Of a DNA stretch of 43,950 nucleotides, positions 10,595-40,787 are shown one piece after another. A program made the position numbers and the translations under genes. Source of the DNA: a virus. Under the pieces are notes generated by a model. The model was not told the origin of the DNA. It did not search any database and worked only from the letters and a program-made list of their open reading frames with translations. The stretch's first letter is position 1; each line of letters begins with the position of its first letter. The DNA lies in IMG/VR virus record IMGVR_UViG_3300030110_002295, positions 1 to 43,950 of that record. One strand, given 5' to 3'.

Positions 10595-12355
10595 TTAGTT
10601 ACCAGTAGGATTAGAATTATAAGTAGTAACTATTTTATTACCGCTTTTATCTATTAAATCTTCTTTAACATCAAACTCACCCCATTTCTGAACATCAAAA
10701 GCGTCTGGGTTTATATTGGTATTAGTATAATAATTAAGTACCTCTAATGCTTGCCCTACGTCTTTACCTGAAAGATAGTTAGTATTTTCTATAACTTCTT
10801 TTAATACAGAGTAAATATCTCCTTTTACTTTTGTAGGTTTCAATTGTCCTTTTCTTATTACAACTACATTTCTTGCTTTACCATCTCCTGGTGTTAAAGA
10901 TTTCACAGTTTCTCTTATAGCTTTTGTTTGAGCGTCTTTAAGGTTTTGCTTGTTCTGGTCTAAGGATAATTCTTTGTTGTAATACTCATTGTAATCACTG
11001 TCTGTGTTTGTAAAGTCTTCTTCAGTTAAATTGTCTATTATATTATGACCTTGAGAAACTAAATCCCCTATAGAATCATTATCTAACACACTGTAAAAAT
11101 CATCACCCGTACTATATCTTTGAAGGATATTAATAGATTCTTGAGGGTCTAAAGTAATACTCTCAGCTGTTAATTTTTTTCCTAAATTATTAGCTCCAGT
11201 AGCGCTTCCTTCACCTCCCTCAATATTTTCTCCTTCAATAGGATCTATAGCTTGCATTTCAATAAACTTAGTTATTGTAGGCGCTATATCAGCTAACAAT
11301 GTATTGACAAAACCACTACCTCCAACACCACTAAAGTTATTGTTATTTGTTGATCCCTTTACACTTTGAACATCTATTATTTCATCAGGTGGAATATTTC
11401 TAAGAATAGCTTTGTCAATCAACCATCCCTCCATCTTTTTTCTCATTTCAGTATTATTAGGATCCCATTGTTCAAAGGTACCAAGTTCTTGATTACCATG
11501 AACCATATCTGACCAAACAACTCCCATTTCTGGATCATTTAATAAATCAGCATACATACTAGATTTAACCATTAATTCACCTAATCTTTTAGGATTATAA
11601 ACTTGTTTAGTTTTAATATTACCTTGACTATCTGTATATTCATACGTATCCATAGCTCCTTTTAATAAACCTTTTTGAGCTTCAAATAATTCATCAATAC
11701 CTAAATCAGTAAAAGTTGGAATAGTTTTAATCATAGCAAAAGTATCATCACTAAGTAAATTACCAAGTTGATCAAGATTCATGGTGTAATTCCAGTCTTC
11801 TTTACCTGCAGTAGTGTTTATTTTACCATTACCACTAAGATACATTTTACCGTCTTTCTCTAATAATCTTACATCTCCACTTCCATTTGCTATAGCATCA
11901 AGCATAGCAGACATACCGTTATCATTAACCCTAGACAACGTACCATTTTGTTTAGCTTGATTATAATATTTTATTTGTTCAACAACTTTTGGTGCTAGGG
12001 TTTTATACTTAGTAATATAATTATTAGTTTCAGATATTATTTTTGCCCCTTCTTGTTGAGTTAAATATCCATCTGAAACAAGACTTTTAGTTTCAAATAT
12101 TTTATCAGCACCTTCGTTAAAAAATCTATTAACATTAGTATCAAAAGTATCCACGCCTGTTTGTGGAATAGTATTTATACTATCATAAACTGATTGATAT
12201 TTTTTGTTTTCCTCATCTAGTATAGCTTGTTGAAAATAATCTCTTTTTAATTTTTCTTCATAAGAAGTATTAAAAGCATCGACTATTCCTTTACCAATCG
12301 CCATTTGATCTGCTCTACCACCATAGGAAACAGGGTTTGTTATTTGTTCTGCCAT
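10595..12355 (-). CDS. probable internal virion protein (586 aa)
   Basis: A soluble, mostly helical protein with no signal peptide or membrane segment. The N-terminus (MAEQITNPVSYGGRADQMAI) is followed by a charged helix. The middle is Gln/Asn-rich, and a Gly/Asn-rich linker lies near residue 345 (STNNNNFSGVGGSGF). It lies between a small Ala/Gln-rich protein and the giant polyvalent protein, with gaps of 16 and 19 bases. That is the position of T7 gp15 in the gp14-gp15-gp16 internal core set. The assignment rests on position and composition, since I see no diagnostic motif. The start has an A/T-rich leader (AATAAATAAATAAAATG) and no Shine-Dalgarno sequence. Confidence 0.5.
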   Translation of the reverse strand: MAEQITNPVSYGGRADQMAIGKGIVDAFNTSYEEKLKRDYFQQAILDEENKKYQSVYDSINTIPQTGVDTFDTNVNRFFNEGADKIFETKSLVSDGYLTQQEGAKIISETNNYITKYKTLAPKVVEQIKYYNQAKQNGTLSRVNDNGMSAMLDAIANGSGDVRLLEKDGKMYLSGNGKINTTAGKEDWNYTMNLDQLGNLLSDDTFAMIKTIPTFTDLGIDELFEAQKGLLKGAMDTYEYTDSQGNIKTKQVYNPKRLGELMVKSSMYADLLNDPEMGVVWSDMVHGNQELGTFEQWDPNNTEMRKKMEGWLIDKAILRNIPPDEIIDVQSVKGSTNNNNFSGVGGSGFVNTLLADIAPTITKFIEMQAIDPIEGENIEGGEGSATGANNLGKKLTAESITLDPQESINILQRYSTGDDFYSVLDNDSIGDLVSQGHNIIDNLTEEDFTNTDSDYNEYYNKELSLDQNKQNLKDAQTKAIRETVKSLTPGDGKARNVVVIRKGQLKPTKVKGDIYSVLKEVIENTNYLSGKDVGQALEVLNYYTNTNINPDAFDVQKWGEFDVKEDLIDKSGNKIVTTYNSNPTGN

Positions 12356-13103: not shown

Positions 13104-13517
13104 TTATAATGTTAATTTTTTTGATACCTCATAAGATGGTTTTTCATCAACAAACCAACCTAATTTTTTATGTGTTTTTATTAAACTTTTACTTTGTAAA
13201 CTAGTAAACATGTAAGTATATCCCATACTTTTAATAAAGTTTTCTAACTCTGTAAGTAAGAATTCTATAGACTCTGGTCTATCGTCTTCTTTGTATTTTG
13301 GATTAGATATAATGTACTCTATCCAAGCCGCTTTAGAATTAGTGAAATAAACAAAACCTGCTACTATAGGTGTATTATTTTTTTCTACCATAAAACCTCC
13401 TGTTCCATGATTTGGTAAAAAATCTTTTGGTGGTGCGACCCAACCAGGCCACCAATCCCACCACTCTACTAGGGTATCCCAGTCTTTAGTGGTAAGAGCT
13501 CTTGCATTAAAATCCAT
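13104..13517 (-). CDS. GNAT-family N-acetyltransferase-like protein
   Basis: I place the start at 13517 (MDFNARALTTKDWDTLVEWW), giving 137 residues. The open frame extends upstream to an ATG at 13628, but that part would overlap the preceding tail gene by about 100 bases and reads as Gln/His-rich noise. The fold pattern fits GNAT: an N-terminal RALTTKDW strand-helix, a GTGGFMVEKNNTPIVAGFVY hairpin, a strand with AWIEYIISNPKYK, a helix after DDRPESIEFLLTELENFI, and a late strand-helix ending KKLGWFVDEK. The acetyl-CoA loop is not a perfect Q/RxxGxG/A. It lies between tail and internal-virion genes. The substrate is unknown; a phage virion protein or a host target are both possible. Confidence 0.6.
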   Translation of the reverse strand: MDFNARALTTKDWDTLVEWWDWWPGWVAPPKDFLPNHGTGGFMVEKNNTPIVAGFVYFTNSKAAWIEYIISNPKYKEDDRPESIEFLLTELENFIKSMGYTYMFTSLQSKSLIKTHKKLGWFVDEKPSYEVSKKLTL

Positions 13518-13527
13518 ATAATTAAAT

Positions 13528-15072
13528 TTAAATTGATGATACAACAAACTCTGACGATGCTGCAAATAATTCTTTTGTGCCGCCTGGGTTTGTTGTTCCG
13601 TCTGTAGACATTTTAACCGTGGCAACATATCCTTTTATACCACTAATATCCACACCAAACACAACTTCACCTGGTGCTACCGGCGAGTTGTTAATTAAGT
13701 TTGCTACGTACTTATTTTCTTTTCTATAAAAACCTGCATAATACTGGACATTGTCTTCTGTATAAGCTCCTTCATAATAACTTAAAACTCTAGGCGCAAA
13801 ATCTTGGGTTGAATCCCAAACCGCATTTACTAAGTCTAATCCTGTAAAATCAGATGTAATAGAATCTACTTGCCAACCATTATTACCTTCGTATGAAATA
13901 GTTTTAAATACTTTTTGAACTGAAGGATTTGGGTTTAATAAAAATTCTATACTAGACTGATAAGATATACCGTAAAAATTATTTCTATTAGTACCTGCTC
14001 CTTCAACATAATGCCTATATATATTTCCACCTGGATCAGGTAAATCAGAATCAGCATTGTAATCAGGTATTGAATACATTGTACCGTTCACACTAAATAT
14101 AAAGTTAGGATTATAAGTATAAAATGTTGGCCACCCTAAAACTGATTCATCAAAAGCTAATGTGCGAGAAGCTTTAGCCGAACCATCTTGATTAAAAGGT
14201 TTTATATTTAAAGTGTATTGTTTTGTGTAATTATCCCAACCACCAATTAATTGACCGAAGTCATCTATAGTGTCTACAGTTGCAAATTGATCTCTAAAGA
14301 AATCTGTCATACCATATCTTGATATTTCAGTTATTCCATCATGTGAAAGTCTTAATACACTTCCTTTGTTTTTATCAGTAAAGTATTTTCTAAACCCATA
14401 CACTGCAAAGCTTTCTGGATTATCACTAATACCATACTCACCAGCATAAGGAACTATTTGACCTATAACTACATTGGAAGAAGTAACAGTACCTCCACCT
14501 TCAGCTGAATATATAGCATCTTTATCTATCAATGCTCTATTAACTTTATTCTCTTGGAATATTATTAAATTTGTATCTTCTGCATAAATTTTCTGTATAC
14601 TACCATTTCTAGGATCTACACTTCTTATAATGTCTTCTCCTACTGGAAATTGGTTAGTATTATTAACTCCTGTTCTAGCGTTGTATATACCACTATAAAT
14701 CATAGAGTTAAATCTAATTGCTGATTGAGGATATTCTTCTTCTATATAAGCTCTAACTCCGTAATCAACATTTGTATTATTATAACCACCTCTTATTCTA
14801 GCCTCTTCAACACACCAATCTAGTAATGGTGGTATAAAAGGATCAGGTGTTAATCCAGCTACAGTAGCTGTACCGGCTTGAGCAAAGTAAGGGTAACCAC
14901 TTCCAGTAGTATTTGTTATAGGTGATATTACACCTGGAAATACATTATTACTAGGTAAAGTAGTGGGATCTATTATTGGATTAATTATTGTAGTTTGCGT
15001 TTGTGCTTTTCCATCTACTATCTTCTTTAACCAAAAAGAGTTAAAATAATTTACTTCTATTACTGCTGGCAT
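13528..15072 (-). CDS. tail nozzle or stabilisation-like structural protein (514 aa)
   Basis: A beta-rich, Asn/Gly/Tyr-rich protein with no signal peptide or membrane segment. The central part carries blocks such as VVIGQIVPYAGEYGISDNPE, a KYFTDKNKGSVLRLS strand pair and DGITEISRYGMTDFFRD. I associate these with crAss-like and marine podovirus tail proteins related to the beta-propeller nozzle (T7 gp12 type). It directly follows the 1542-residue protein, so the two probably form neighbouring layers of the same short tail. Its leader contains a 17-nt sequence repeated upstream of the chaperonin operon. The structural role is likely; the exact position in the tail is inferred. Confidence 0.55.
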   Translation of the reverse strand: MPAVIEVNYFNSFWLKKIVDGKAQTQTTIINPIIDPTTLPSNNVFPGVISPITNTTGSGYPYFAQAGTATVAGLTPDPFIPPLLDWCVEEARIRGGYNNTNVDYGVRAYIEEEYPQSAIRFNSMIYSGIYNARTGVNNTNQFPVGEDIIRSVDPRNGSIQKIYAEDTNLIIFQENKVNRALIDKDAIYSAEGGGTVTSSNVVIGQIVPYAGEYGISDNPESFAVYGFRKYFTDKNKGSVLRLSHDGITEISRYGMTDFFRDQFATVDTIDDFGQLIGGWDNYTKQYTLNIKPFNQDGSAKASRTLAFDESVLGWPTFYTYNPNFIFSVNGTMYSIPDYNADSDLPDPGGNIYRHYVEGAGTNRNNFYGISYQSSIEFLLNPNPSVQKVFKTISYEGNNGWQVDSITSDFTGLDLVNAVWDSTQDFAPRVLSYYEGAYTEDNVQYYAGFYRKENKYVANLINNSPVAPGEVVFGVDISGIKGYVATVKMSTDGTTNPGGTKELFAASSEFVVSSI

Positions 15073-15106: not shown

Positions 15107-18100
15107 TTATATTGATTTAGGATATGAAAATCCAGTCTTAGCACCTGTAGCGCCAAACTCAGCCAACCATATTCTATCTGCTTGTGGATTAGAATTAGAG
15201 TTGTTAAAATTGTTAATTGTTACAGCGGCACCGTCGTTTCCATTAGGATTACCTGCCCCACCAATTCCCGCGCTAGGTCTTGCCTTATAAGCGTGCCACG
15301 TGTTAGTTCCTACTTGTGTTGGATTCCATTGCGTTGTTAATTCTGAATCAGTATAAAATTGAGTTACATATCTAAAAAATGGTTCTCTTGCAAACACCTC
15401 TGTCCATTGAACACCTGTATAATTAGATGCTGACACAACATCTGGTTCAGCTACAGTCATCACACTGTATCTCCATGTACGATTTGTAATACCAAATGGA
15501 TAATAAAAATCTCCATATGTTATACTAAGTTTACAGTTTTCATTTTTATACACACCTGTGTTACCTTCTGTGGTAGTTGGACTAGGCCACTCTGTTTGAG
15601 AACCTTGTAAGTTGTTTACCATAACCCTGTAATCTCCTGCGGCAAAAGGATTGTTAGCATCAAAAGCAAAAGTTCTTGTAGCAACAACTGTTAATTGATC
15701 GCTTGCATTAGACTGTGGTTTATCCATTATACCTTTCATAATATGATCTTCATAACCTATAGGATATCCACCTTGTGGATCAATATTTACTAAACTACCT
15801 AAGTTTAAAGAATAAAACGCGCTACCTTGATTAATAGGATAATTAACTTTCCATTCACCTCCAATTGGTAAACCGGTAGGACCTCCAACAACAAGGCCAT
15901 CTTTATCTATAGCGTCTTCCCAAGGGGTTGGTAAAGCACCACCTGATCTTCTTTGTATCCAAACACTAGCGGATAAATCTAAAAGAGGTGGTAGCTGTGT
16001 ACTGAAATCAAAAGGATTTATAGTTTGAACTAAAGATATTGTAATATAAGCAACACCTTTTCTTAAACCTCTATCAGTACCAGTTAATGTGCACCAACTA
16101 GGTCCATCAGATAAATCTAAAGATTTAACATTGTATGTAAACCCTGCTCCTGGAGTACCATATGAAACATTGTTAATATTAACTGGATTTTGAGGATCAG
16201 GTATTTGATTCCACACAGATGGGATGTAGTCAGGGTTGCTAGGATTACCAGCTGAACCAGGTCTTTGAGTATCATAATCTGGTACTGTTAAACCAGTAGA
16301 TTTATTAGACCACACTACTAACCCAGCATCTGAACCCTGTAAGAAGTTAATAGCTTCTCCAGAATCTATAAACGTACATGTTACTGATGCTTCTCCAAAA
16401 TCAAAGTTTAATTCTATTACTGTAGTTATAGCTCCTTCTGCACCTAAAGCGTCTGTGACAGCTAACCTAAGAAAATAAGGACCTGTCATTATAGTTTGTG
16501 GTAGTTGGCTTAACTCTCCTGTTTCAGCGTCTATATTAAAAATATTAACACTTTGGCCGTACTGTGATTGCTCTACTATTGCATACTGTAACTCTAGTTC
16601 TTCAGTAATAAGATCAGGATCTGCTGTTCCATTTTCACCTGAATAAGTTGGATTAGAACCGGGAGGTGGTGCCAAACCAAAAGCATTATAAGGAAAAATC
16701 CTGTAAGCTGAATATGGATCAAATGATGGCGCAGCATTACCTAAGTTTATATATTTTATTATAGTTGGACCTATATCACCTGTAGCATCATTTGTTGCCA
16801 CAAAATTAAATATCCAATTTCTAATCTGAGAATTAGACAGGTACACAAAATACTTGCTTATTTGAAGTGTATAGCTATCATAAAGATGTGTGTTACCGTT
16901 GGGAGTTACTACTCCTGCCGCTGTTTCAACTAATGTAATTCCTATAGTTGCGGTTACATCAGTGCCAGCATTATTTAAAATCGTCATTGTCATAGACGTA
17001 CTATTTATAGCTGACCCTAACGCGTCTTCTATATAAAAATCGTCTGTTATAATAGGTCCTTGTCCAGTAGTATATGCTTGAACAGGGTTTGTATAATTTC
17101 TATCTTCTGAAAAATTAACAAGAAAATCTTCAATTTCATCTGGAATAGACGGTATAGTTGTATTGATAGCATTATTTAAGTCTCTAATTTTACCACTAGT
17201 AGAAGTTTCCCAAAATAATTCTAACTTAGATTCAACAGGTTTTGTTTCATAAACACTTAAGAAAAATGGATAACCACTTGCAGGAGGTGTATTATCTCCT
17301 CCACTACCTATTAATTTTTGAGTAGATATTCGTGCTAAATAAGGGTTTGAATCAGAGTCATAAACATCATTTAATGTTATAAAACTTGATGCAACATTTT
17401 GATTCCAATAGTCAGAGAAAAACAAATCTGTTTGTCTTCCTATTTGAGTTGTAATATCCGCCACTAAATTTGGTAGGTATTGAGTGTTATATAGTGGAGT
17501 AACCACAGGTACTACATCTGGTGCTATAGGTAGTTGAGGACTAACTTTACCAAATAACTCTACACTGCTTCTAAATTGTGTTTGATCTGGTCCTACTTCT
17601 TTTAAATCTCTAGGAACCTTATTTATATTATCATTAAATAATGTAATAGTGGAGGTATATATTTCTCCATCAGGATAACCAGGTGAAGCCGCGGGTAAAC
17701 CTGTTAATATACCAGGTAAATAAACATTGTAATAATCTTGTTGTTTTTGCTTAACTACAACTTTATAAGTATACCAACCTAGTGGATTATAATTACTACT
17801 AGTTGGATCTCCATTGTATAAGCCCGGTGTACCTAGTTCAGAATCAAAAGCTGAATCTATAATATTATTGAAATATAGTTTTAAACTATTACCCGGCCAA
17901 TCTACTATGTTATTAAAATTTTGAGTATCATATTCATCTTGATATGGTACGTATATAGTATCAGCACCAAACTGAGGGTTAGGTGCGGCTGCTGCTACAA
18001 AATTTTGATTATTTGAAAGTAAAACCGTAGATGTTCTTCCATATCTATCAGATAAAACTATTCCTACTTGATAATATCTATTTTGTTTTACAGTGTGGTT

Positions 18101-19735
18101 TGGATAAGACGAATAAGAATAATTGCTATTTAATTCATCATAAGGAATTTTAGAAGATATACCAACATTGTAATCTAAAGACTCAGGTGGAGTGTGTTTG
18201 TTTTGAAAATTACTATATACTATTCTGTTGCTTATTATTTCTTGACCTAAAGCTTTTACAGGTACTTTATCATACACTCTAGTGGTTTGATCTTCAGGTA
18301 ATACTTTAAATGGTTCAGTGGCTAGATAATCATATTCATATGTGGTTACCGCACCAGCTGTATTTAATTGTTCTGTGGTTATTCTTTCAACTACAGCCAC
18401 AGCTAAACTATCAGATTCTTTATACAGTAATTCTATTTCTTCAATATTTAAAACTTCTAGTAATTGATTAGCGTTTAACTGAGTACCATCTATCGCGTCA
18501 GGCATTGGTATTTGAAGAAAAATTCTATTAACCAAGTTTTCCATAAAAGAAACTACAGTACTTTCATATGTTCTAGTTTCATCACTAACCTCCTCACCAG
18601 TTGGAGTAATAATTCCTTCTAAAAAATACCCAAACTGTTTAGGAATAAAACAAGCCTGTGTAAATGGAGCCATTAAAGAAAACTCTCCATCTGTAAATTT
18701 AAACCTATAACTAAATCTAACAAATTTATCTGTTAAAAAATCTTGATTACCAGGATACGTGGTTGCTCCACCAGTGTTATCCCAATTAGGATTTTCATAA
18801 CCAAAATATGCCATAACAGGGTTAGGACCACTAAACGCTTCAAATCTACATACAATGTTGCCTCCATCTCTTTGAGCAATAACAAATCTACCTGGAGATA
18901 CTACAGATACAATATACACGTTGTCTTCTGGAGTTATTTGACCATCACTTGTCCATATTTGTTTACCTACAGCAATAGCATCACTCATACCTGGAGTATA
19001 AGTTGCGGTATCTACTAAAATTTCTTGAGGCGCTGAAGGTAAAAGTATGTTAGCATCCATCTGTGCTTGAGCAATCATGGGTGATGTAGAGCTAACAGCA
19101 TCTACCATAGTAGTTTCAATAACACCCGCGTTATCTTTCCATACTTCAATAGGTTTGTATGGGTTATATTTACATACTGTTATTTGATCTTCAGTAATAT
19201 AAGGTAGATCAGCTATAGATGTAAAATTATTATAAAGAGTAGCATCTGGATTATTTATATTTATAACTCTAGGTTGGTTTCTATTATCAGTCCAAAACAT
19301 TAAATCCTCTATAACATTAATGTTTCGTATTTGATATCCTGTAGAAAAATTTAAAAACGTTCCAGCGGAATATATATAAATATCTCCATTATCTATATCA
19401 TATCTTATTATAGCATTTTGAGTAGTTTTAATATAACGTAGTGATTCATCAAAATTATTAGTTAAAAACAAATATATTCTACTATTTATTTCATCTGCAA
19501 ACTGACCAACAATAACTAAAGGAGTTGAACTTAATATATCCCCAACAATTTTACCTACATTTCCATTAAGTACTAGTCTATTTCCCTGTACATTTTCAGC
19601 AGCTCCAACGTTACTATCTTCTGACTTTGATATTGCTATATTCTGAGCGTCACGATATTCACCGTTAGGTAGTAATCTTTCATCTAAGTCTTTATTCATT
19701 TTAGACTTTAGAAAAGTATTTTTTATTTCTGCCAT
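15107..19735 (-). CDS. large tail protein (1542 aa), nozzle-type N-terminus with cadherin-like insertion
   Basis: The N-terminus (KSKMNKDLDERLLPNGEYRD, then SEDSNVGAAENVQGN) and the repeated beta-strand blades after it (IVGQFADEINSRIYLFLTNN, INVIEDLMFWTDNRNQPRVI) fit a propeller-like podovirus tail tube or nozzle protein. Around residues 1000-1110 there is a cadherin-like unit. Its motif FNIDAETGELSQL near 1066 is followed by RLAVTDALGAEG, the usual DxxTGxL and VTDxxG signature. The C-terminal third is Pro/Gly/Asn-rich and lacks recognisable motifs. It is six bases downstream of the connector gene at 19742. A role as the main tail body is well supported by size and place; the cadherin-like part may face the host surface. 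Confidence 0.6.
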   Translation of the reverse strand: MAEIKNTFLKSKMNKDLDERLLPNGEYRDAQNIAISKSEDSNVGAAENVQGNRLVLNGNVGKIVGDILSSTPLVIVGQFADEINSRIYLFLTNNFDESLRYIKTTQNAIIRYDIDNGDIYIYSAGTFLNFSTGYQIRNINVIEDLMFWTDNRNQPRVININNPDATLYNNFTSIADLPYITEDQITVCKYNPYKPIEVWKDNAGVIETTMVDAVSSTSPMIAQAQMDANILLPSAPQEILVDTATYTPGMSDAIAVGKQIWTSDGQITPEDNVYIVSVVSPGRFVIAQRDGGNIVCRFEAFSGPNPVMAYFGYENPNWDNTGGATTYPGNQDFLTDKFVRFSYRFKFTDGEFSLMAPFTQACFIPKQFGYFLEGIITPTGEEVSDETRTYESTVVSFMENLVNRIFLQIPMPDAIDGTQLNANQLLEVLNIEEIELLYKESDSLAVAVVERITTEQLNTAGAVTTYEYDYLATEPFKVLPEDQTTRVYDKVPVKALGQEIISNRIVYSNFQNKHTPPESLDYNVGISSKIPYDELNSNYSYSSYPNHTVKQNRYYQVGIVLSDRYGRTSTVLLSNNQNFVAAAAPNPQFGADTIYVPYQDEYDTQNFNNIVDWPGNSLKLYFNNIIDSAFDSELGTPGLYNGDPTSSNYNPLGWYTYKVVVKQKQQDYYNVYLPGILTGLPAASPGYPDGEIYTSTITLFNDNINKVPRDLKEVGPDQTQFRSSVELFGKVSPQLPIAPDVVPVVTPLYNTQYLPNLVADITTQIGRQTDLFFSDYWNQNVASSFITLNDVYDSDSNPYLARISTQKLIGSGGDNTPPASGYPFFLSVYETKPVESKLELFWETSTSGKIRDLNNAINTTIPSIPDEIEDFLVNFSEDRNYTNPVQAYTTGQGPIITDDFYIEDALGSAINSTSMTMTILNNAGTDVTATIGITLVETAAGVVTPNGNTHLYDSYTLQISKYFVYLSNSQIRNWIFNFVATNDATGDIGPTIIKYINLGNAAPSFDPYSAYRIFPYNAFGLAPPPGSNPTYSGENGTADPDLITEELELQYAIVEQSQYGQSVNIFNIDAETGELSQLPQTIMTGPYFLRLAVTDALGAEGAITTVIELNFDFGEASVTCTFIDSGEAINFLQGSDAGLVVWSNKSTGLTVPDYDTQRPGSAGNPSNPDYIPSVWNQIPDPQNPVNINNVSYGTPGAGFTYNVKSLDLSDGPSWCTLTGTDRGLRKGVAYITISLVQTINPFDFSTQLPPLLDLSASVWIQRRSGGALPTPWEDAIDKDGLVVGGPTGLPIGGEWKVNYPINQGSAFYSLNLGSLVNIDPQGGYPIGYEDHIMKGIMDKPQSNASDQLTVVATRTFAFDANNPFAAGDYRVMVNNLQGSQTEWPSPTTTEGNTGVYKNENCKLSITYGDFYYPFGITNRTWRYSVMTVAEPDVVSASNYTGVQWTEVFAREPFFRYVTQFYTDSELTTQWNPTQVGTNTWHAYKARPSAGIGGAGNPNGNDGAAVTINNFNNSNSNPQADRIWLAEFGATGAKTGFSYPKSI

Positions 19736-27668: not shown

Positions 27669-29888
27669 TTATTGTATGATTTTTGAGTTATAACCCTCGT
27701 TTTTGTATTTTTTAAAACCTAAAGGGACAACATCCCTTTTAAAATCCGCAACTGGTTTATACTTATTTTTATTACAAGCCATTATAGCTAATCCAGAACT
27801 AATAGCAGCATCATATTTAGTTCTGTTGTTTATATTGAATTTAGCCCAATCTTCTAATGTTCTTTGGAAATACATGCTACCATAACATTCATTGTTATAT
27901 CCTACATAGTTTTCAATATACATTTCAATTGCTGCAGCGTGGGCTTGCTTTATATCTTCACTAGAGTTTGGTATACCACCAACTTCTTTTTCTGTTGTAG
28001 ATAATTTATTCCACATTTTATCAGGTCTATTCATAGAATAACCTCTATAACCTCTACGTTTTAAATAATAAAGTAATCTAGGTTTATTATTTTCTGCTAA
28101 CAATGGCATTCCGTAAAATACTAAAGCCATTAATACATCTTCAAAAAATATATCAGCTGTTTGAGGTCTTGCTATATATTCTAAAAAAAAATGATTAGCC
28201 GGAGAATCTTCCATACTAAATTTACTAAGACCATGCAAAGCTCCTTTAGAACCTCTATTATCTACTGTACCTGATATATCATAACTATCACAACCAAACG
28301 CGCCCATATGCTCGTTACCAGGATATTTTGTATTATTTTTTAATATAACTTTATTTTGTTGCTCTCTGTTTGGAACCCAAGAAATATTAAATCTACCATC
28401 TTTATTAGGCATAAATAAAACTTGAGTGTCTTTTATACCATTTTCCCATTGAAAATTACCTTGTGTAACTAATGGACTCATACCTAACACCTCTTCATTG
28501 TAATCTATTTGTTGATACAATTTAGTAAGATTAAATAATGATGCTTTTGTTTCATCTCTGAAAGCGTGTTTTTCAGTACGTGGAAATTGTCTATAATATT
28601 CGTTTAAAGCATCTTGATCGCCTTTTAAACCATCAACTTCATTTTGCCAATAATCTATAACACCTAGTGTTATTTCATAACCATCAGGTCCAAATGTTTT
28701 TGTTTTTGGAGTGTCAAAGACAGGTAAGCCATTAGAATCAATGTATCCTTCGTAGTTCCATTCCATAGGTATGAACAAATTATATAATCCCGAGCGAGTC
28801 TGTCCATTGGCGTTTCTTTTGGTAACATCTGAATCATAGTATAATTTTTTAAAGTTATCACCACCTTTGTCTAAAGCGTTTGATGTTGATCCCATCATGC
28901 ATTTTCCTACTACCTTACTACCTAGTCTTAATGTTGTTTTTGTTACCCTCCAATTATTTAATATATTGTTAGGTCTTTCCCATTTACCACTTTCATCATG
29001 TACTAATAGTTTTAGTTTTTCACCATCATAACTATTATCTCCTGTATTTTTCCAGTCTATTGTTGTATCTAATCCTTTTAAATCCTCTAAAGACTCATCA
29101 GGACCAGCTGCAATTTTACGTCTTGTAAATTTACTTGCAGGTACTCGATACGCTAATTCTGTTTTAGGACGATCCATACCATCTTGAGTAGGTTTAAAAA
29201 AGAAAGGGTAATTAACTGATATAGGTACTACCTTATCTGTAAACATACTTTTTGCGTCAGGACCAGATTTAGATAATATACCGTACCGTGAATCACTAGA
29301 TATAGTAGCTAAATTTACAACTTCACCAGATGCCATAAAGGAAAACCCGGAACGTCTATTTTTAAGATAACACATTCCGTAAGATCTATAATCAGCTTTA
29401 CAAGCTTCCCAAAAAATAAAGAATAATCTATTTGATTCTCTAAAATCTGGAGCACCCACGTCTATTTTAGACCATTGTAGATACATGTAATGAGTTCCAG
29501 TTAAATATGTAGGTTTATTGTTATTATAAAACCAAAACCCTGAATCTCTACGATTAAACTCATTATCAATGTAATCGTACCATTGTTCTTTAAAATCTTC
29601 TGGATATTGTTTAAAGTCAAATACAGTTTTTATTTTGCTTAACTGTTTAGGATATTCAACTTTTTTCCATTTACCATCTTTAAACTTACAAATATCTTTT
29701 GCTTTAGGTAAAGCTATTTTTAAGTTTTGTATTTCATATATTTCACCTATCGTACCGTCTTTACTAATTACAACTATATCATATTCTTTGTTGTAACCAT
29801 ATTTCCATTTTTTAGATTTATTTAATCTTTTAATTACTTTAGGGTTTATATGATCATCTATTATCTTGTATAAAGTTTGTTGATACAT
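27669..29888 (-). CDS. terL: terminase large subunit (DNA-packaging ATPase and nuclease)
   Basis: The 739-residue protein has an N-terminal ATPase part with a degenerate Walker-A-like loop KNRRSGFSF (176-184) and a clear Walker B, LLVHDE, with D298 and E299. A C-terminal RNase-H-like nuclease follows: first acidic residue in GCDSYDISG (D534), further acidics in YIARPQTADIFFEDV, and a late SSEDIKQAH. Adaptor-like aromatic segments (GFWFYNNNKPTYLTGTHYMY) precede the ATPase core. It is directly followed by portal. The start overlaps the stop of the 90-residue gene as TAATG and, unusually for this window, has an upstream AAAGGAG. It drives ATP-dependent packaging at the portal. Confidence 0.8.
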   Translation of the reverse strand: MYQQTLYKIIDDHINPKVIKRLNKSKKWKYGYNKEYDIVVISKDGTIGEIYEIQNLKIALPKAKDICKFKDGKWKKVEYPKQLSKIKTVFDFKQYPEDFKEQWYDYIDNEFNRRDSGFWFYNNNKPTYLTGTHYMYLQWSKIDVGAPDFRESNRLFFIFWEACKADYRSYGMCYLKNRRSGFSFMASGEVVNLATISSDSRYGILSKSGPDAKSMFTDKVVPISVNYPFFFKPTQDGMDRPKTELAYRVPASKFTRRKIAAGPDESLEDLKGLDTTIDWKNTGDNSYDGEKLKLLVHDESGKWERPNNILNNWRVTKTTLRLGSKVVGKCMMGSTSNALDKGGDNFKKLYYDSDVTKRNANGQTRSGLYNLFIPMEWNYEGYIDSNGLPVFDTPKTKTFGPDGYEITLGVIDYWQNEVDGLKGDQDALNEYYRQFPRTEKHAFRDETKASLFNLTKLYQQIDYNEEVLGMSPLVTQGNFQWENGIKDTQVLFMPNKDGRFNISWVPNREQQNKVILKNNTKYPGNEHMGAFGCDSYDISGTVDNRGSKGALHGLSKFSMEDSPANHFFLEYIARPQTADIFFEDVLMALVFYGMPLLAENNKPRLLYYLKRRGYRGYSMNRPDKMWNKLSTTEKEVGGIPNSSEDIKQAHAAAIEMYIENYVGYNNECYGSMYFQRTLEDWAKFNINNRTKYDAAISSGLAIMACNKNKYKPVADFKRDVVPLGFKKYKNEGYNSKIIQ

Positions 29889-30160
29889 TATTTAGATCTC
29901 CTTTCTGCAAAACCTTTAAAAGTTTTTTCTTTAACCTCTTTTGGTTTAGCTTCTAACATATCTTTTTCTTCCTGTATACGATTAAGTATTTCAAAAGCAT
30001 CGAATATAGCTAATTTTTTTGTAGCTGCAGCGTTCTTTAATCTATCTGCAGATATATCATCGTTTGAATCTACAATAGGTTCTTTAGCAACCTTTATTAA
30101 TTCTTCCACCGCCTTTTGCCCAGCGTGGATTATATTCAATTTCGTTTCCTTGGTTTTCAT
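29888..30160 (-). CDS. small helical protein upstream of terL, possible small-terminase analogue
   Basis: Ninety residues, nearly all predicted helix: MKTKETKLNIIHAGQKAVEE, then a helix around DRLKNAAATKKLAIFDAFEI and a Lys/Glu-rich end with FKGFAERRSK. It overlaps the tandem GroES-like gene by 77 bases at its start and the terL start by one base (TAATG). A short helical protein just before terL is where the small terminase subunit usually lies. I see no helix-turn-helix, so TerS is only a positional guess. The long overlap is unusual, but both frames are open and sensible. Confidence 0.5.
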   Translation of the reverse strand: MKTKETKLNIIHAGQKAVEELIKVAKEPIVDSNDDISADRLKNAAATKKLAIFDAFEILNRIQEEKDMLEAKPKEVKEKTFKGFAERRSK

Positions 30161-30683
30161 ACTTAACAGAGATATTTTTAGATTTCATACAATATAATAA
30201 TTCTTCATCAATTAAAAACCTCCATTCTCTACCAGGTGGATAACCTATTATATCACCTTGTTTTAAACCTTTTTGTTTTAATTGATTGTTATTAAATTTT
30301 ATAACACCAGTAAGATCTCTGTCTTTTAATGGTTTTATAAAACAATACTCACCAAACGCTTTCCATTTGTTTTCTTTATTAACTAAATATATTTGATCTG
30401 GTGCTGCAAAATATAGTTCTTCATTAAAGTAAGACGCAGAGTTTCTTTCTGCTCCTGTTTGATCATACCATCTTCTAAATATATTATGATGAACAACTAT
30501 TATATCACCAACGTTTATATTGGTTTGATACGCTGTTGGCACTGCAACAACTTTTGCAAATCTACTTATAAATTCAAATTCTTCTATAGATGCGTTTACT
30601 ATTAATTTTTTATTATCAACTCTTATTTCATTTTCATATCTTTCATCAAGAGGTGTGATAATAAAATTTTCAATACTTCTCAT
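30084..30683 (-). CDS. divergent cochaperonin-like protein with two GroES-like halves
   Basis: The 199-residue protein appears to hold two copies of the GroES beta-barrel pattern. Half one has ENFIITPLDERYE (5-17), a loop ending KKLIVN (25-30), a strand FAKVVAVPT (42-50) and NVGDIIV (57-63). It resembles the canonical GroES of this window (NLIITPMEQGVEE, GGLLLT, INEGDEI), with an insertion at about 68-90. Half two has GEYCFIKPLKDRD (111-123), GVIKF (126-130), LKQGDIIG (140-147) and the hairpin RFLIDEELLYCMKSKNI (155-171), parallel to KIEINKDTYHVIKSRDV in GroES. It joins its neighbours by TAATG on one side and a 77-nt overlap on the other, and lies next to terL and the head genes. By analogy with T4 gp31 it may be a capsid-specific lid for GroEL. 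The fold is inferred from motif order only. Confidence 0.6.
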   Translation of the reverse strand: MRSIENFIITPLDERYENEIRVDNKKLIVNASIEEFEFISRFAKVVAVPTAYQTNINVGDIIVVHHNIFRRWYDQTGAERNSASYFNEELYFAAPDQIYLVNKENKWKAFGEYCFIKPLKDRDLTGVIKFNNNQLKQKGLKQGDIIGYPPGREWRFLIDEELLYCMKSKNISVKYENQGNEIEYNPRWAKGGGRINKGC

Positions 30684-35376: not shown

Positions 35377-35819
35377 CTTGCTTTATCTTTATTAACATGA
35401 TCAATTGAGGTTTTTAAAACCTTATTCATATACGTGCCACCTTTCATTATAATGTTTCTTCTTTCGCTAGTTGGTATATCATCTTCACCTAGCATTATTC
35501 TATAAACTTTATTTATTAATTGTTTACCCTTAAAAGAAACTTTATATATATTGTATTTTCTTGTGGTTCTATTTCGGTGTCTCCACACTTTAATCCAATC
35601 GTTTTGAATTAACTTGTTCCACCTTCTATTATTCCAACTATAAGAGTATGTGCCCATTTTAAAATCTTTAATAGTAAACATGTCTATGCAGTCTAGATAT
35701 ATAAGAAGTTCTAAGTCAGCATCATTCAAGCCGTTGTTTTTACAAGCCCATTTGCGTATTATACGGTAATGTTTTAACAAGTTCAATTTTTTAATATCAC
35801 TTGCTTCTAGCTTTTTCAT
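35349..35819 (-). CDS. winged-helix (MarR-like) DNA-binding protein
   Basis: The 156-residue protein has the order expected of a winged helix: NGLNDADLELLIYLDCIDMF (helix 1-2), FTIKDFKMGTYSYSWNNRRW (recognition zone), then KLIQNDWIKVWRHRNRTTRK and YNIYKVSFKGKQLINKVYRI (wing and dimer helix). It is translationally coupled to groES (ATGA overlap at 35816-35819), so it is made with the chaperonin. It may regulate phage or host transcription. The final 40 residues (MKGGTYMNKVLKTSIDHVNK) look like an add-on. The family call is from pattern only. Confidence 0.5.
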   Translation of the reverse strand: MKKLEASDIKKLNLLKHYRIIRKWACKNNGLNDADLELLIYLDCIDMFTIKDFKMGTYSYSWNNRRWNKLIQNDWIKVWRHRNRTTRKYNIYKVSFKGKQLINKVYRIMLGEDDIPTSERRNIIMKGGTYMNKVLKTSIDHVNKDKARWQDKTNLL

Positions 35820-36076
35820 AAAACAACGACCACGTCTCTTGATTTAATAACGTGATATGTATCTTTATTTATTTCAATTTTGTGGCCTGCTCTTCTATCG
35901 AAGTATATTTCATCGCCTTCGTTTATACCTTTTACATCAACACCAAAAGTTAACACTTGAGCTTTTTCAAACCTTATATCTTCTCTTTGTCCGTGAGTTA
36001 ATAATAGACCACCTTTTGTTTCTTCAACACCTTGTTCCATAGGTGTTATAATTAAATTATCCCCTATCGCCTTCAT
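35816..36076 (-). CDS. groES: cochaperonin GroES (Hsp10)
   Basis: The 86-residue protein, shorter than the usual 94-97, follows the GroES layout. It has NLIITPMEQ at the N-terminus, a mobile loop with ETKGGLLLTHG (hydrophobic triplet L24-L26 in place of IVL), KAQVLTFG, the conserved INEGDEIYFDRRAG, and a C-terminal hairpin KIEINKDTYHVIKSRDVVVV. The mobile-loop triplet is kept, so GroEL docking is plausible. Its ATG lies inside the 3' end of groEL (20-nt overlap), and its stop overlaps the next start (ATGA). It should cap the GroEL ring encoded just upstream. Confidence 0.9.
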   Translation of the reverse strand: MKAIGDNLIITPMEQGVEETKGGLLLTHGQREDIRFEKAQVLTFGVDVKGINEGDEIYFDRRAGHKIEINKDTYHVIKSRDVVVVL

Positions 36077-37610
36077 GTATTCTAATATTATTAATTACAC
36101 AATCAGTTGATAAAATAGTGGTAGCTACAGAAGCCGCGTTTTTTAAAGCGCTTTTTGTAACCAATAGTGGATCAATAATTCCACTATCAATCATGTTTAC
36201 CATATTTCCTGTAACCACGTTTATACCATTCCCTTCTTTTAAGTCTGTATTAGATTTAATACCAGCGTTTCTTAATATAACATCGAATGGAGATTTAATT
36301 GCGTCAAATAAAACTTCTTCTGCTTTGTTTGCAGCTTTTATTTTTAACGCAGCATTAAGTAAGGCTATACCTCCACCTGGAACTATACCTTCTTTTATCG
36401 CGGCTTTTGTAGCACACACAGCATCTTCAACTCTATCTTTTTTTTCTTTTAATTCTACATCAGAATTAGCACCAACTTTTACGTTAGCAATTTTTGCGGA
36501 TAGTAATGCTAATCTTCTTTCAAGTCGTGTTATAGGACCAGGTTTAGTTTCTTTTAGTATATCTTTCTTTACTTGTTCAATAACATCTTCTACTTGTAGA
36601 GAAACACCTGCGACCTGTATAATGGTTTCATATTCTGTTGTTACCGACTTAACACATTCACCTAAATGTTCAGGTTGGATTAAATCTAAATCATCACCTA
36701 AATGCTCATTAATAACTGTTGCTCCAGTCATCATAGCAATATCATTTAATACTTGTTTTTTAGTAACTCCAAAATTAGGAGCATCAATTATATTTATTTT
36801 TATATTACCTTTTATTTTATTCATTGCTAATGCTGCTAATACTTTAGTATCTGCATCTCCAATAATTAACAAGGCTCTATTAGTTTTTATGACGTGTTCT
36901 AAAACTGATTGAATCTTACGTATGTTTTCTATTTTAGATTCTACAATTAAAATTAGAGGTTTGTTAAGTTCAGCTTTTTTACCACCTTTATCAGTGACAA
37001 AACTCATGTTTTTTAACCCTCTATCATATTGTATACCATCTACAATTTCTACATATGTTTCAGCAGTATCAGATTCTTCCATAGCAACCACACCGGTTTT
37101 ACCTACAGCTAAAAAAGCTTTAGATATTTTTTCCCCTAATTCTTTATCATTATTAGCTGAGATAGTTGCTACTTGTTCTACCATATCATCTACAACAGGT
37201 ATACTTATGTCATCTAAGTATTTTATTGTTTTGGTTACAGCAGAATCAATACCTTCTTTTAAAAATCTTACATTATTAATATTATGCTTTTTAGCTAAAT
37301 GTAAAATTGAATGTGCTAGTACTGTTGCGGTTGTTGTCCCATCTCCAGCTTCTTTTACGGTTTTACGCGCTGCTTCTTTTATAAGCATTGCACCCATATT
37401 TTCAACTGGATCTAATAACGTAACGCTTTCTGCTACTGTAATCCCATCTTTTGTTATAGTAGGTTTACCTAAATTATCTTCTAAGATAACACACTTACCG
37501 TTAGCCCCAAGTGTGGAGCTAACAGCTTTTGTGAGTTTATCTATTCCTTTTAATATCTTATCTTGAGCTTCATTGCCAAAGTTAAGATTTTTAACAAGTT
37601 TTTCTGTCAT
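36057..37610 (-). CDS. groEL: chaperonin GroEL (Hsp60), phage-encoded
   Basis: The 517-residue protein aligns with GroEL along its length. ATPase residues are intact: TKDG with D55, GDGTTTAT with D90 at 89-96, PGGG at 411-414 and RVED with D396, corresponding to D52, D87 and D398 of E. coli. The C-terminus stops at IHEGDRG and lacks the GGM-rich tail. In the apical domain several polypeptide-binding positions differ from E. coli: DRGYLSPYF is DRGLKNMSF (Y199 to L, Y203 to S), L234 is Q, and V263 and V264 are A and M; L237 is kept. It should fold proteins in the host cytoplasm with a GroES-like lid. It is followed, not preceded, by groES. Confidence 0.92.
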   Translation of the reverse strand: MTEKLVKNLNFGNEAQDKILKGIDKLTKAVSSTLGANGKCVILEDNLGKPTITKDGITVAESVTLLDPVENMGAMLIKEAARKTVKEAGDGTTTATVLAHSILHLAKKHNINNVRFLKEGIDSAVTKTIKYLDDISIPVVDDMVEQVATISANNDKELGEKISKAFLAVGKTGVVAMEESDTAETYVEIVDGIQYDRGLKNMSFVTDKGGKKAELNKPLILIVESKIENIRKIQSVLEHVIKTNRALLIIGDADTKVLAALAMNKIKGNIKINIIDAPNFGVTKKQVLNDIAMMTGATVINEHLGDDLDLIQPEHLGECVKSVTTEYETIIQVAGVSLQVEDVIEQVKKDILKETKPGPITRLERRLALLSAKIANVKVGANSDVELKEKKDRVEDAVCATKAAIKEGIVPGGGIALLNAALKIKAANKAEEVLFDAIKSPFDVILRNAGIKSNTDLKEGNGINVVTGNMVNMIDSGIIDPLLVTKSALKNAASVATTILSTDCVINNIRIHEGDRG

Positions 37611-38614: not shown

Positions 38615-39991
38615 TTATTGTTTAATCATTACTATACCAGCTACGTTTAAAGGAGCTGCTCCAGCCCCAGTAGTTTGATATAGCATATTGGTTAATATAC
38701 CACCAGTTCCTGCAGCCGCATCATCATCAAATGACGGTAAGCTACCTGGAAGTCTAAATCTGTCGTGGTTAGTATTACCAATAGTAATTTCATTGTTAAC
38801 AGTACCACTTGGTTGAGCTTGATGACCTATAACTATATTGTTATTTCCTGGAGATGCTCCATTATTTGCTTGCCATCCAATAGCTATGTTTTCGTTATTT
38901 GAGACAAGGTTTTCTAATGCATAAGCACCTAAAGCTACATTAGCAAAACCATCTTGCATGTTTTTTAAACAAGATCTACCAACACCAACATTATTAGTAC
39001 TTTGGCCTGCATTTACACTTTTTATTTCTGCACCTACAAATGTATCAGCTAAACTTAATGTACATTCCATACCAGCTGCATAACCTATAGCGGTGTTTGA
39101 TGGTACAGCAAAAGCTGGACTTACGTTTTGATTACCTAAAGCTTTATAACCTATAGCGGTACATTGAACTTCGTTGTTTTCTAAATTCATTGCATTAAAT
39201 CCAAAAGCCGTATTACCACTGTCTCCAGATGCTCCACCAGATGTTGGTCCTAGATTTGCTCCAGCCCCGACACCAAAAGTTGTAACACCTACTTGAGTTG
39301 TTGCTGGGTTTTCACCTTGTAGAAGTGTCCCATTACCTACATCGTACTGATAAGGCCAAGGTATACCTCCTCCAGCTGTTTCAATTACATTTCCACTAGC
39401 ATCAACCGCTAAACTAAAAGCAGCTGTACCTGTGTAAGTACCGCTTCCATAATCTATAAACTCAACTTGTTTGTGTAGGTTTACACTTTCTGATCCTGGA
39501 GTTGTAACAACTTCAAGCATAGGATTGTTTCCATTAGCTCCAATTCTCCATCCATCACCAGCCCAGTTATATAGATAACCAAAGCCATCGCCATCATCAT
39601 CCCACCCCATAGAGACTTTATAATTAAATGCTTCATCTACAATTACAAATTCAGGATCACCACCTGCAGAACCCGCTTCTCTTGATAACACCATACTATA
39701 AGCGTCTCTTAATATCATATAGTTTGCTCCTGTTACAGATGGATAAGTAATTGACGCTGCGGAAGGTGCTAGCGTAAATTGACCAGGTGATGTTTCTTGA
39801 TACACAGGTATTCTATCATTTATTCCTGGAGTTGAGCCACCTGCTATTACTGTATCAATAACATCTTGCATTGTATATTGAGTATCTAAACTCGTAACCG
39901 TATTTACATTGTTATTTGTTGTTGTAAGTAATCCCCCTGGTTTTGATGGGTCATACCAATCTAATTTATATGTTAAAGGGATTAGCGCCAT
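38615..39991 (-). CDS. fibre protein with YadA-like head repeats (458 aa)
   Basis: Residues 1-52 are the shared attachment segment. Residues 259-405 hold about eight degenerate head repeats of the form N-x-A-I-G-x-x-A: NTAFGFNAM, CTAIGYKAL, NTAIGYAAG, NVGVGRSCL, NVALGAYAL, NIAIGWQAN, NIVIGHQAQ and EITIGNTNH. This is the left-handed beta-roll pattern of trimeric adhesins such as YadA, also used in phage fibres. The C-terminus has TTGAGAAPLNVAGIVMIKQ. The start is fixed by identity with the paralogue; it lies 26 bases inside the glycosyltransferase-like gene. It is likely a trimeric receptor-binding fibre. Confidence 0.7.
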   Translation of the reverse strand: MALIPLTYKLDWYDPSKPGGLLTTTNNNVNTVTSLDTQYTMQDVIDTVIAGGSTPGINDRIPVYQETSPGQFTLAPSAASITYPSVTGANYMILRDAYSMVLSREAGSAGGDPEFVIVDEAFNYKVSMGWDDDGDGFGYLYNWAGDGWRIGANGNNPMLEVVTTPGSESVNLHKQVEFIDYGSGTYTGTAAFSLAVDASGNVIETAGGGIPWPYQYDVGNGTLLQGENPATTQVGVTTFGVGAGANLGPTSGGASGDSGNTAFGFNAMNLENNEVQCTAIGYKALGNQNVSPAFAVPSNTAIGYAAGMECTLSLADTFVGAEIKSVNAGQSTNNVGVGRSCLKNMQDGFANVALGAYALENLVSNNENIAIGWQANNGASPGNNNIVIGHQAQPSGTVNNEITIGNTNHDRFRLPGSLPSFDDDAAAGTGGILTNMLYQTTGAGAAPLNVAGIVMIKQ

Positions 39992-40787
39992 TTCTACTTA
40001 ATTTTTTTAATTTACTCTTTACTTTTACTTCTATTTCTTTTTTTCTTTTGGATTGTGATATTAAATGAGTGTATCCATACTTTTTAGCATCTTGTTCTGA
40101 AACCCATTTATGACCGAGTGTTGTTATTGGTACTTTATAGTATTGTAATAAATTACTAATAAAATATTGTTCAAACATTATTGAAGGAACATTCAGAGGA
40201 TCTGCAATTTTACCAGCTGTATTAATGTAATCTAAAGCTAAATCATACCATTCAGGTATATGCTTTAAATTATTATAACCCATAAAACCACAACACACAG
40301 CGTTTAATACAACCTTAGAAAAATCTACATATTTATGCATTTTTAATTCAGGTGTTTCATAGCAGTCTTGTATTAATCTTCTATAATACTGATGACTATA
40401 CTCGTCTGTTTCCCAGTTTTGAAAACACGCTTCAGCATTTAATATATGAGCAGGAGGTTTTTTAAACCAAAAAGCATCCATATCTAAATGCATAAAAGGT
40501 TTATCTTGTAATATACACGCGTATAGTTTACCTATAGCCCAAAACCTTGTATCTATTTTGTTTAGTGTGTCTAGTTCTATCTTAACGTTGTCAAATGGGA
40601 GTTTTAAATCTTTCACTAATAACTCATAACCTTTTTTATCAGTCACTAATTCAATTTCATCAGCCCATTTTTTACTAGTTAAAATAGATAATTTAGCGCT
40701 ATCTGTAAATGCTTCTTTACTGTTAAATCCTACACAGTCATCTTTTGCTGGCTTAGACCAGTGACTGTAAACAACCTTTTTAATCAT
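39966..40787 (-). CDS. GT-A-type glycosyltransferase-like protein
   Basis: The 273-residue protein opens VVYSHWSKPAKDD, followed by a KLSILTSKKWADEIELVTDK strand-helix-strand and RFWAIGKLYACILQDKPFMH. It then has HLDMDAFWFKKP, where D102 and D104 form the DxD metal- and sugar-nucleotide-binding motif. The later part has VLNAVCCGFMGYNN and a VPSIMFEQYFISNLLQYY helix, and a Lys-rich end (KRKKEIEVKVKSKLKKLSRN). This order fits small Bacteroidota GT-A-like proteins. It lies inside the fibre cluster and overlaps the next fibre start. Possible targets are the fibres themselves or host surface glycans. The fold is likely; the donor and acceptor are unknown. Confidence 0.65.
   Translation of the reverse strand: MIKKVVYSHWSKPAKDDCVGFNSKEAFTDSAKLSILTSKKWADEIELVTDKKGYELLVKDLKLPFDNVKIELDTLNKIDTRFWAIGKLYACILQDKPFMHLDMDAFWFKKPPAHILNAEACFQNWETDEYSHQYYRRLIQDCYETPELKMHKYVDFSKVVLNAVCCGFMGYNNLKHIPEWYDLALDYINTAGKIADPLNVPSIMFEQYFISNLLQYYKVPITTLGHKWVSEQDAKKYGYTHLISQSKRKKEIEVKVKSKLKKLSRNGANPFNI

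Follow-up and report, generated by a model that had tools for sequence, protein, structure and literature searches.

ATP-driven capture and release is established for the GroEL family, and in E. coli the two genes of this system lie in the order groES-groEL. Chloroplasts pair one group I chaperonin, Cpn60, which is made from alpha and beta subunits, with the single-domain Cpn10 and with the tandem Cpn20 or Cpn23, in which two domains are joined head-to-tail. The single and tandem chloroplast lids form seven-domain hetero-oligomers, and in Chlamydomonas CPN20 and CPN23 join a single-domain subunit (PMC5780408). Among phages, T4 encodes gp31, a single-domain lid that lacks roof loops and acts on the host GroEL (PMC6318259). 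Pseudomonas phage EL encodes a GroEL relative that works as single rings and shows neither binding to nor functional interaction with E. coli GroES (PMC7185714); another such relative is found in Bacillus phage AR9. Among isolates, the nearest layout to the one described here, i.e. GroEL with a short GroES, plus a long GroES in the vicinity of the terminase gene, is present in phi38:1/Calle (Cellulophaga), elemo (Flavobacterium), Panino (Maribacter) and ctfjg026.

The window, by which we mean the whole stretch of DNA analysed, is a 43,950-base IMG/VR virus record of a marine phage, and the groEL gene studied here lies on its minus strand (36057..37610, ATG to stop). Profile and structure matches identify the product (517 aa, 55.5 kDa) as a group I chaperonin. 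With the GroEL-GroES system of E. coli and Bacteroidota it shares the fold, the layout in three domains, the ATP site, the GroES loop and the contact residues F204, L237 and N265. It differs from that system in being about 42-45% identical to Bacteroidota GroELs, in five groove changes, in the lack of a GGM tail, in changed inter-ring residues, in a gene order in which groEL precedes groES, opposite to that of E. coli, and in the addition of a second, tandem lid.

The GroEL matches Pfam Cpn60_TCP1 (PF00118; E 3e-56, 191 bits, cut-off 34) and PHROG 5725, chaperonin groEL (E 4e-134). Solved GroELs align to its residues 7-507 and the fold is matched over the full length. It scores below the curated cut-off of the NCBIfam equivalog TIGR02348 (451 bits vs 582) and passes the broader GroEL subfamilies NF000592 (464 vs 397) and NF009487 (453 vs 352), so that by profile score it is a GroEL subfamily member outside the strict equivalog. 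In an alignment to E. coli K-12 GroEL, which served as the reference for numbering throughout, the nucleotide-site residues T30, G32, D52, G53, G86-T91, I150, S151, D398, G414-416 and D495 are all kept, with P33A and A480V as small exceptions. The intact ATPase residues described in an earlier note on this DNA were thus confirmed, and at the ATP site there is no variation between the window and its viral relatives.

Relatives of this GroEL, with 63-97% identity, were found on 80 IMG/VR contigs. The best matches in isolate phages reach 36-43% identity, and most of these phages belong to Flavobacteriia or other Bacteroidota hosts. A quick maximum-likelihood tree recovers the window clade as one group (support 99), which falls together with elemo, phi38:1/Calle, Panino, ctfjg026 and ctf1B273 and away from the hosts. 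The GroELs of phiKT1024, SJC03/DAC23 and a 735-kb phage nest among bacteria, as expected of separate acquisitions, and mostly retain Y203 and hydrophobic groove residues. The deep order of the tree is unreliable, since long branches meet there. A prophage or host origin of the window GroEL was also considered and rejected: among the listed matches, best first, in 196 Flavobacteriales genomes, none exceeded 45% identity, and thus no copy of the window type was seen there.

Next to groEL lies the short groES (35816..36076, minus strand), which overlaps it by 20 nt. Its product (86 aa) consists of a single Cpn10 domain (PF00166, 40 bits, cut-off 21.1) with a hydrophobic mobile loop, GGLLLTHG, and a shortened roof segment of 10 residues, compared to 14 in most hosts and 19 in E. 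coli. A reduced roof is a feature shared with T4 gp31; gp31 is a single lid used with the host GroEL, whereas the window phage encodes two lids and its own GroEL. The short GroES adjoins GroEL in 81/81 relatives, usually with an overlap of 17-20 nt. The loop T-x-G-G-L-[LFI]-L is present in nearly all of them, and G24, L25 and L27 are found in 81/81.

The second lid gene, the long groES (30084..30683, minus strand), is located about 5.4 kb beyond the short groES. It is followed by an ORF of 90 aa (29888..30160, minus strand), which overlaps the 3' end of the long groES by 77 nt and the next gene by 1 nt, then by the gene for the large terminase subunit (27669..29888, minus strand) and by the portal gene. 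A small ORF in a like position between long groES and terminase is also seen in ctfjg026 and phi13:2. Elsewhere in the record, the structural region contains two very long ORFs (1285-10575, 3096 aa, and 15107-19735, 1542 aa, both minus strand) and a pair with an overlap of about 100 nt (13104-13628 and 13528-15072, minus strand), each with a PHROG match. A 273-aa protein (39966-40787, minus strand) matches Pfam DUF6734 (E 9e-43), and a gene next to it matches tail-spike and virion-structural PHROGs.

The 199-aa long GroES matches PHROG 13932, named GroES, and gave no match in a Pfam search. An AlphaFold2 model built from 51 sequences (pLDDT 82, pTM 0.77), used in place of a poor 15-sequence model (pLDDT 54), has two beta-rich domains, with low confidence at residues 30-34, where the mobile loop would sit. 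The best Foldseek match of this model in the PDB was 7ekq chain R (7ekq_R; E 1.5e-4, probability 1.0, 207 columns), followed by chain Q of the same entry (E 3.4e-3, probability 1.0), both over the whole length. This entry is a structure of ClpP from an algal chloroplast. The similarity to 7ekq is moderate (TM 0.54, 10% identity), and nearly all the next strong matches are single-domain Cpn10s or gp31. The algal CLP core is capped by CPN11, CPN20 and CPN23 (PMC8889267), and we infer from their lengths (194 and 205 aa) that chains R and Q are tandem subunits. In hhalign comparisons, domain 2 of the long GroES family matches GroES with probability 93 (E 2e-7), and the homologues from phi13:2 and phi38:1 pass Pfam Cpn10 in this half. 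For domain 1 the match is weak, with probability 16 and E 1.5e-3 (E 0.07-0.8 after shuffling of columns), and its assignment as GroES therefore rests on the predicted structure. Each domain has conserved loop-like motifs, with L27 (90/94) and N30 (92/94) in the first and G126 (92/94) and K129 (91/94) in the second. Taken together, the long GroES is predicted to consist of two fused GroES domains in tandem, at about residues 1-104 and 105-178.

Both lids accompany this type of GroEL. The long GroES is present in 26/27 GroEL-bearing contigs of 33 kb or more, and of the long-GroES loci that have 7.5 kb or more of upstream sequence, 41/42 hold GroEL. Isolates carrying all three genes are elemo, phi38:1/Calle, Panino and ctfjg026. 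In elemo and Panino the long groES lies directly upstream of the large terminase gene; in ctfjg026 one small ORF separates the two, and in phi38:1 the gene after the long groES is an unnamed 2.6-kb ORF. In GenBank the long lid appears as 'co-chaperonin GroES', 'chaperonin cpn10' or 'hypothetical protein'. Because the phages with the long lid and a remodelled GroEL group together on long branches, their association counts as perhaps one event. The earlier note had postulated a matched lid; a cognate short GroES does lie beside every GroEL of the clade, but there are two different lids and not one.

The complete genome of Cellulophaga phage phi13:2 (NC_021803.1, 72 kb) encodes a short and a long GroES (88-336 and 10709-11311), and no GroEL was found in it by annotation, phmmer or profile (E<=1). 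Near-identical long lids are found in phi18:3, phi19:3 and phi46:3. The lid pair is thus separable from the phage GroEL, and in phi13:2 the lids may serve the host GroEL. This raises the alternative that in the window phage, too, both lids act mainly on the host GroEL, for which gp31 is the precedent, while the phage GroEL has a separate role and an apical face that drifted from, or was selected against, the host GroES. Such a division of labour seems unlikely to us, since in the window clade the genes for GroEL and the short GroES overlap and co-occur without exception, and the long lid is found on nearly all large contigs. In addition, position 28 of the GroES loop is P in 77/77 host-type sequences and A, T, G or S in the phage proteins, which hints at different partners.

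We next consider the binding groove of GroEL. In the window protein, RGYLSPYF is changed to RGLKNMSF (Y199L, L200K, S201N, P202M and Y203S; codons 199-204 of this segment, which underlies part of the polypeptide-binding site, at 36999..37016, minus strand). Further changes are L234Q in helix H, at a contact of the GroES mobile loop (PMC3514286; codon at 36909..36911, minus strand), and V263A and V264M in helix I (codons at 36822..36827, minus strand). F204, L237, L259 and N265 are unchanged. The five named substitutions and LKNMSF in place of YLSPYF were all as the earlier note had read them.

These positions were compared in 81 window-type viral GroELs (the window and its 80 relatives), 80 host GroELs and 17 GroELs from GenBank phage records. 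At position 199 the window clade has L in 72, V in 5 and I in 4 sequences, against Y in 79 and F in 1 of the hosts; at position 203 it has H in 66, S in 14 and N in 1, against Y in 80/80. The clade is uniform at the other three sites, with Q234, A263 and M264 each in 81/81, where hosts have L in 78/80, V in 80/80 and V in 78/80, respectively. Such invariance excludes chance or sequencing error. N265 and L237 are also kept in all 81 phage GroELs. The 80 host GroELs, mostly from Bacteroidota and their neighbours, had been chosen by similarity to an ancestral GroEL, and for this reason a second set was read, the 30 GroELs most like that of the window from the survey of 196 Flavobacteriales genomes. 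Here Y199 is present in 29/30 (one F199), and positions 203, 234, 263 and 264 are standard in 30/30. The same residues being typical of Flavobacteriia GroEL, i.e. a lineage explanation, is ruled out by these two sets: apart from one F at 199 in each and a few exceptions at 234 and 264, all 110 host GroELs keep the standard residues. In this alignment the groove changes are therefore phage-specific. The GroELs of phi38:1/Calle, elemo, Panino and ctfjg026 have likewise lost Y203 and are changed at L234, V263 and/or V264, but in the pairs measured GroEL identity is about 36-39%, the replacements at these sites are others, and the gene positions differ. Phage ctf1B273 (MW202497) has L199, L203, A234 and E263; a long lid was looked for in it and not found, and a nearby GroES annotation is absent. 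It is a possible independent case of a changed groove.

The earlier note had taken loss of function in polar E. coli mutants as a guide to these changes, which is not a fair proxy. Replacements at three of the five named sites are hydrophobic (Y199 to L, V or I, V263A and V264M), and only L234Q and Y203S/H are polar. Of the eight core groove sites in the window GroEL, 6/8 are hydrophobic, although 5/8 do not have the standard residue. L234, L237 and V264 of E. coli GroEL contact the IVL tripeptide of GroES, the N265A mutation blocks GroES binding, and V, L and L occur naturally at 234, 237 and 264 of human mHsp60 (PMC3514286). Given the mHsp60 residues, L234Q stands alone as a sharp change of chemistry at the contact with the lid. 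The predicted lid contacts of the phage GroEL would be Q, L and M opposite an L-L-L loop.

The apical changes might also reflect, for the most part, relaxed divergence in a phage protein that evolves fast, without meaning for clients or lid, in an otherwise ordinary GroEL. Among sites at which 95% or more of the hosts agree, the window protein departs from them at 49/86 in the apical, 34/102 in the equatorial and 10/42 in the intermediate domain. In the classical binding set of eight sites (199, 203, 234, 263 and 264 plus F204, L237 and L259) the count is 5/8, compared to 44/78 for the rest of the apical domain (Fisher p 0.52). Thus divergence extends over the entire apical domain, with no enrichment of changes in the binding set, and the idea of a specially remodelled binding surface, as put forward in the earlier note, was not borne out. 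This result and the hydrophobic nature of most named replacements speak for relaxed divergence. On the other hand, mean entropy within the clade is 0.33 bits at the eight binding sites and 0.99 bits at other apical sites (permutation p about 0.01). As evidence for constraint this is of moderate strength, since the permutation ignores phylogeny and covers just eight sites. Moreover, Q234, A263 and M264 are invariant down to 63% identity, where drift would leave them variable. We therefore regard relaxed divergence as an improbable account of the groove. The selection on the surface suggested earlier keeps support from the low variability within the phage clade, which fits it moderately well, and finds none in an excess of change at the binding set; a narrow phage client set is a conjecture. 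Co-variation between position 203 and the GroES loop was also examined (S203 with H29, H203 with E29), but S203/H29 is confined to one close clade and is not evidence of co-variation. A charge swap at D83-K327 was likewise discarded: the window has K/E, yet the pair varies across the clade.

The GroEL of the window ends in CVINNIRIHEGDRG followed by the stop codon (36057..36101, minus strand), without the GGM tail, as had been noticed earlier. This tail is present in 75/80 host GroELs and in 0/81 window-type viral GroELs, and the isolates elemo, phi38:1, Panino and ctfjg026 are without it as well. When the last 13 residues are removed, E. coli GroEL fails to replace GroEL in stringent strains (PMC11978752); earlier reports disagree with this finding on the need for the tail in E. 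coli, which makes the missing tail notable and not diagnostic. The loop around E434 is seven residues shorter in the phage protein (31 residues instead of 38 between positions 413 and 450). The inter-ring residues R452, E461, S463 and V464 are not conserved in the phage clade; R452 and E461 vary freely and V464 is mostly lost. A swap of the R452-E461 pair was not substantiated, the D/K pair being seen once and without consistent compensation. To judge from these residues, the altered contacts may weaken the double ring. The GroEL relatives of phages EL and AR9 likewise have an altered apical domain and lack a GGM tail, and a lid-independent single-ring chaperonin of their kind would fit the altered inter-ring contacts, but it is very improbable here, since these giant-phage proteins are far more distant (28% identity over 77% of the protein for EL and 23% over part of it for AR9), the window phage encodes two GroES-like proteins, one of them adjacent and with a conserved GroES-type loop, its GroEL keeps N265, and single rings are compatible with the use of a lid.

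With modest confidence, we favour a phage-encoded, active group I chaperonin system that combines a diverged but constrained GroEL with a single-domain and a tandem GroES in a mixed, chloroplast-like lid. In such a system, ATP-driven rings of seven GroEL subunits would capture phage proteins on the altered groove of helices H and I. Virion proteins are likely clients, a guess by analogy with gp31 and T4 gp23 (PMC6318259). A seven-domain lid of mixed single and tandem subunits, suggested by the co-occurrence of the two genes and by the Cpn10/Cpn20 proposal for chloroplasts, would then close the chamber, its hydrophobic loops inserting into the same helix H/I groove. The effect of the apical changes would be to tune the groove's affinity towards the lids and clients of the phage, at the expense of GroES and clients of the host. 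Compared to the chloroplast lids, close sequence kinship is not detectable, and co-assembly of the phage lids is inferred from co-occurrence; also, the phage GroEL is encoded by one gene, in contrast to alpha/beta Cpn60. More tentatively, it is possible that marine flavobacteriophages independently reached the chloroplast solution, with a mixed single and tandem lid and a groove re-tuned (Q234, A263 and M264) for this lid and for phage clients, and with the phi13:2-like pair working on the host GroEL.

One groove of GroEL serves both client and lid, which raises the question of how it can be retuned without loss of function. The phage clade is a natural set of GroELs that exchanged residues with an important part in binding by E. 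coli GroEL and then held the replacements fixed. The pair of single and tandem lids is the more informative finding than the groove changes. Within the literature and GenBank annotation compared, this would be the first time that such a pair is recognised outside systems of the plastid type. The pair opens to experiment, in a small phage system, the problem of fitting an even number of domains to a seven-fold ring, and phi13:2 provides a natural lid-only control.
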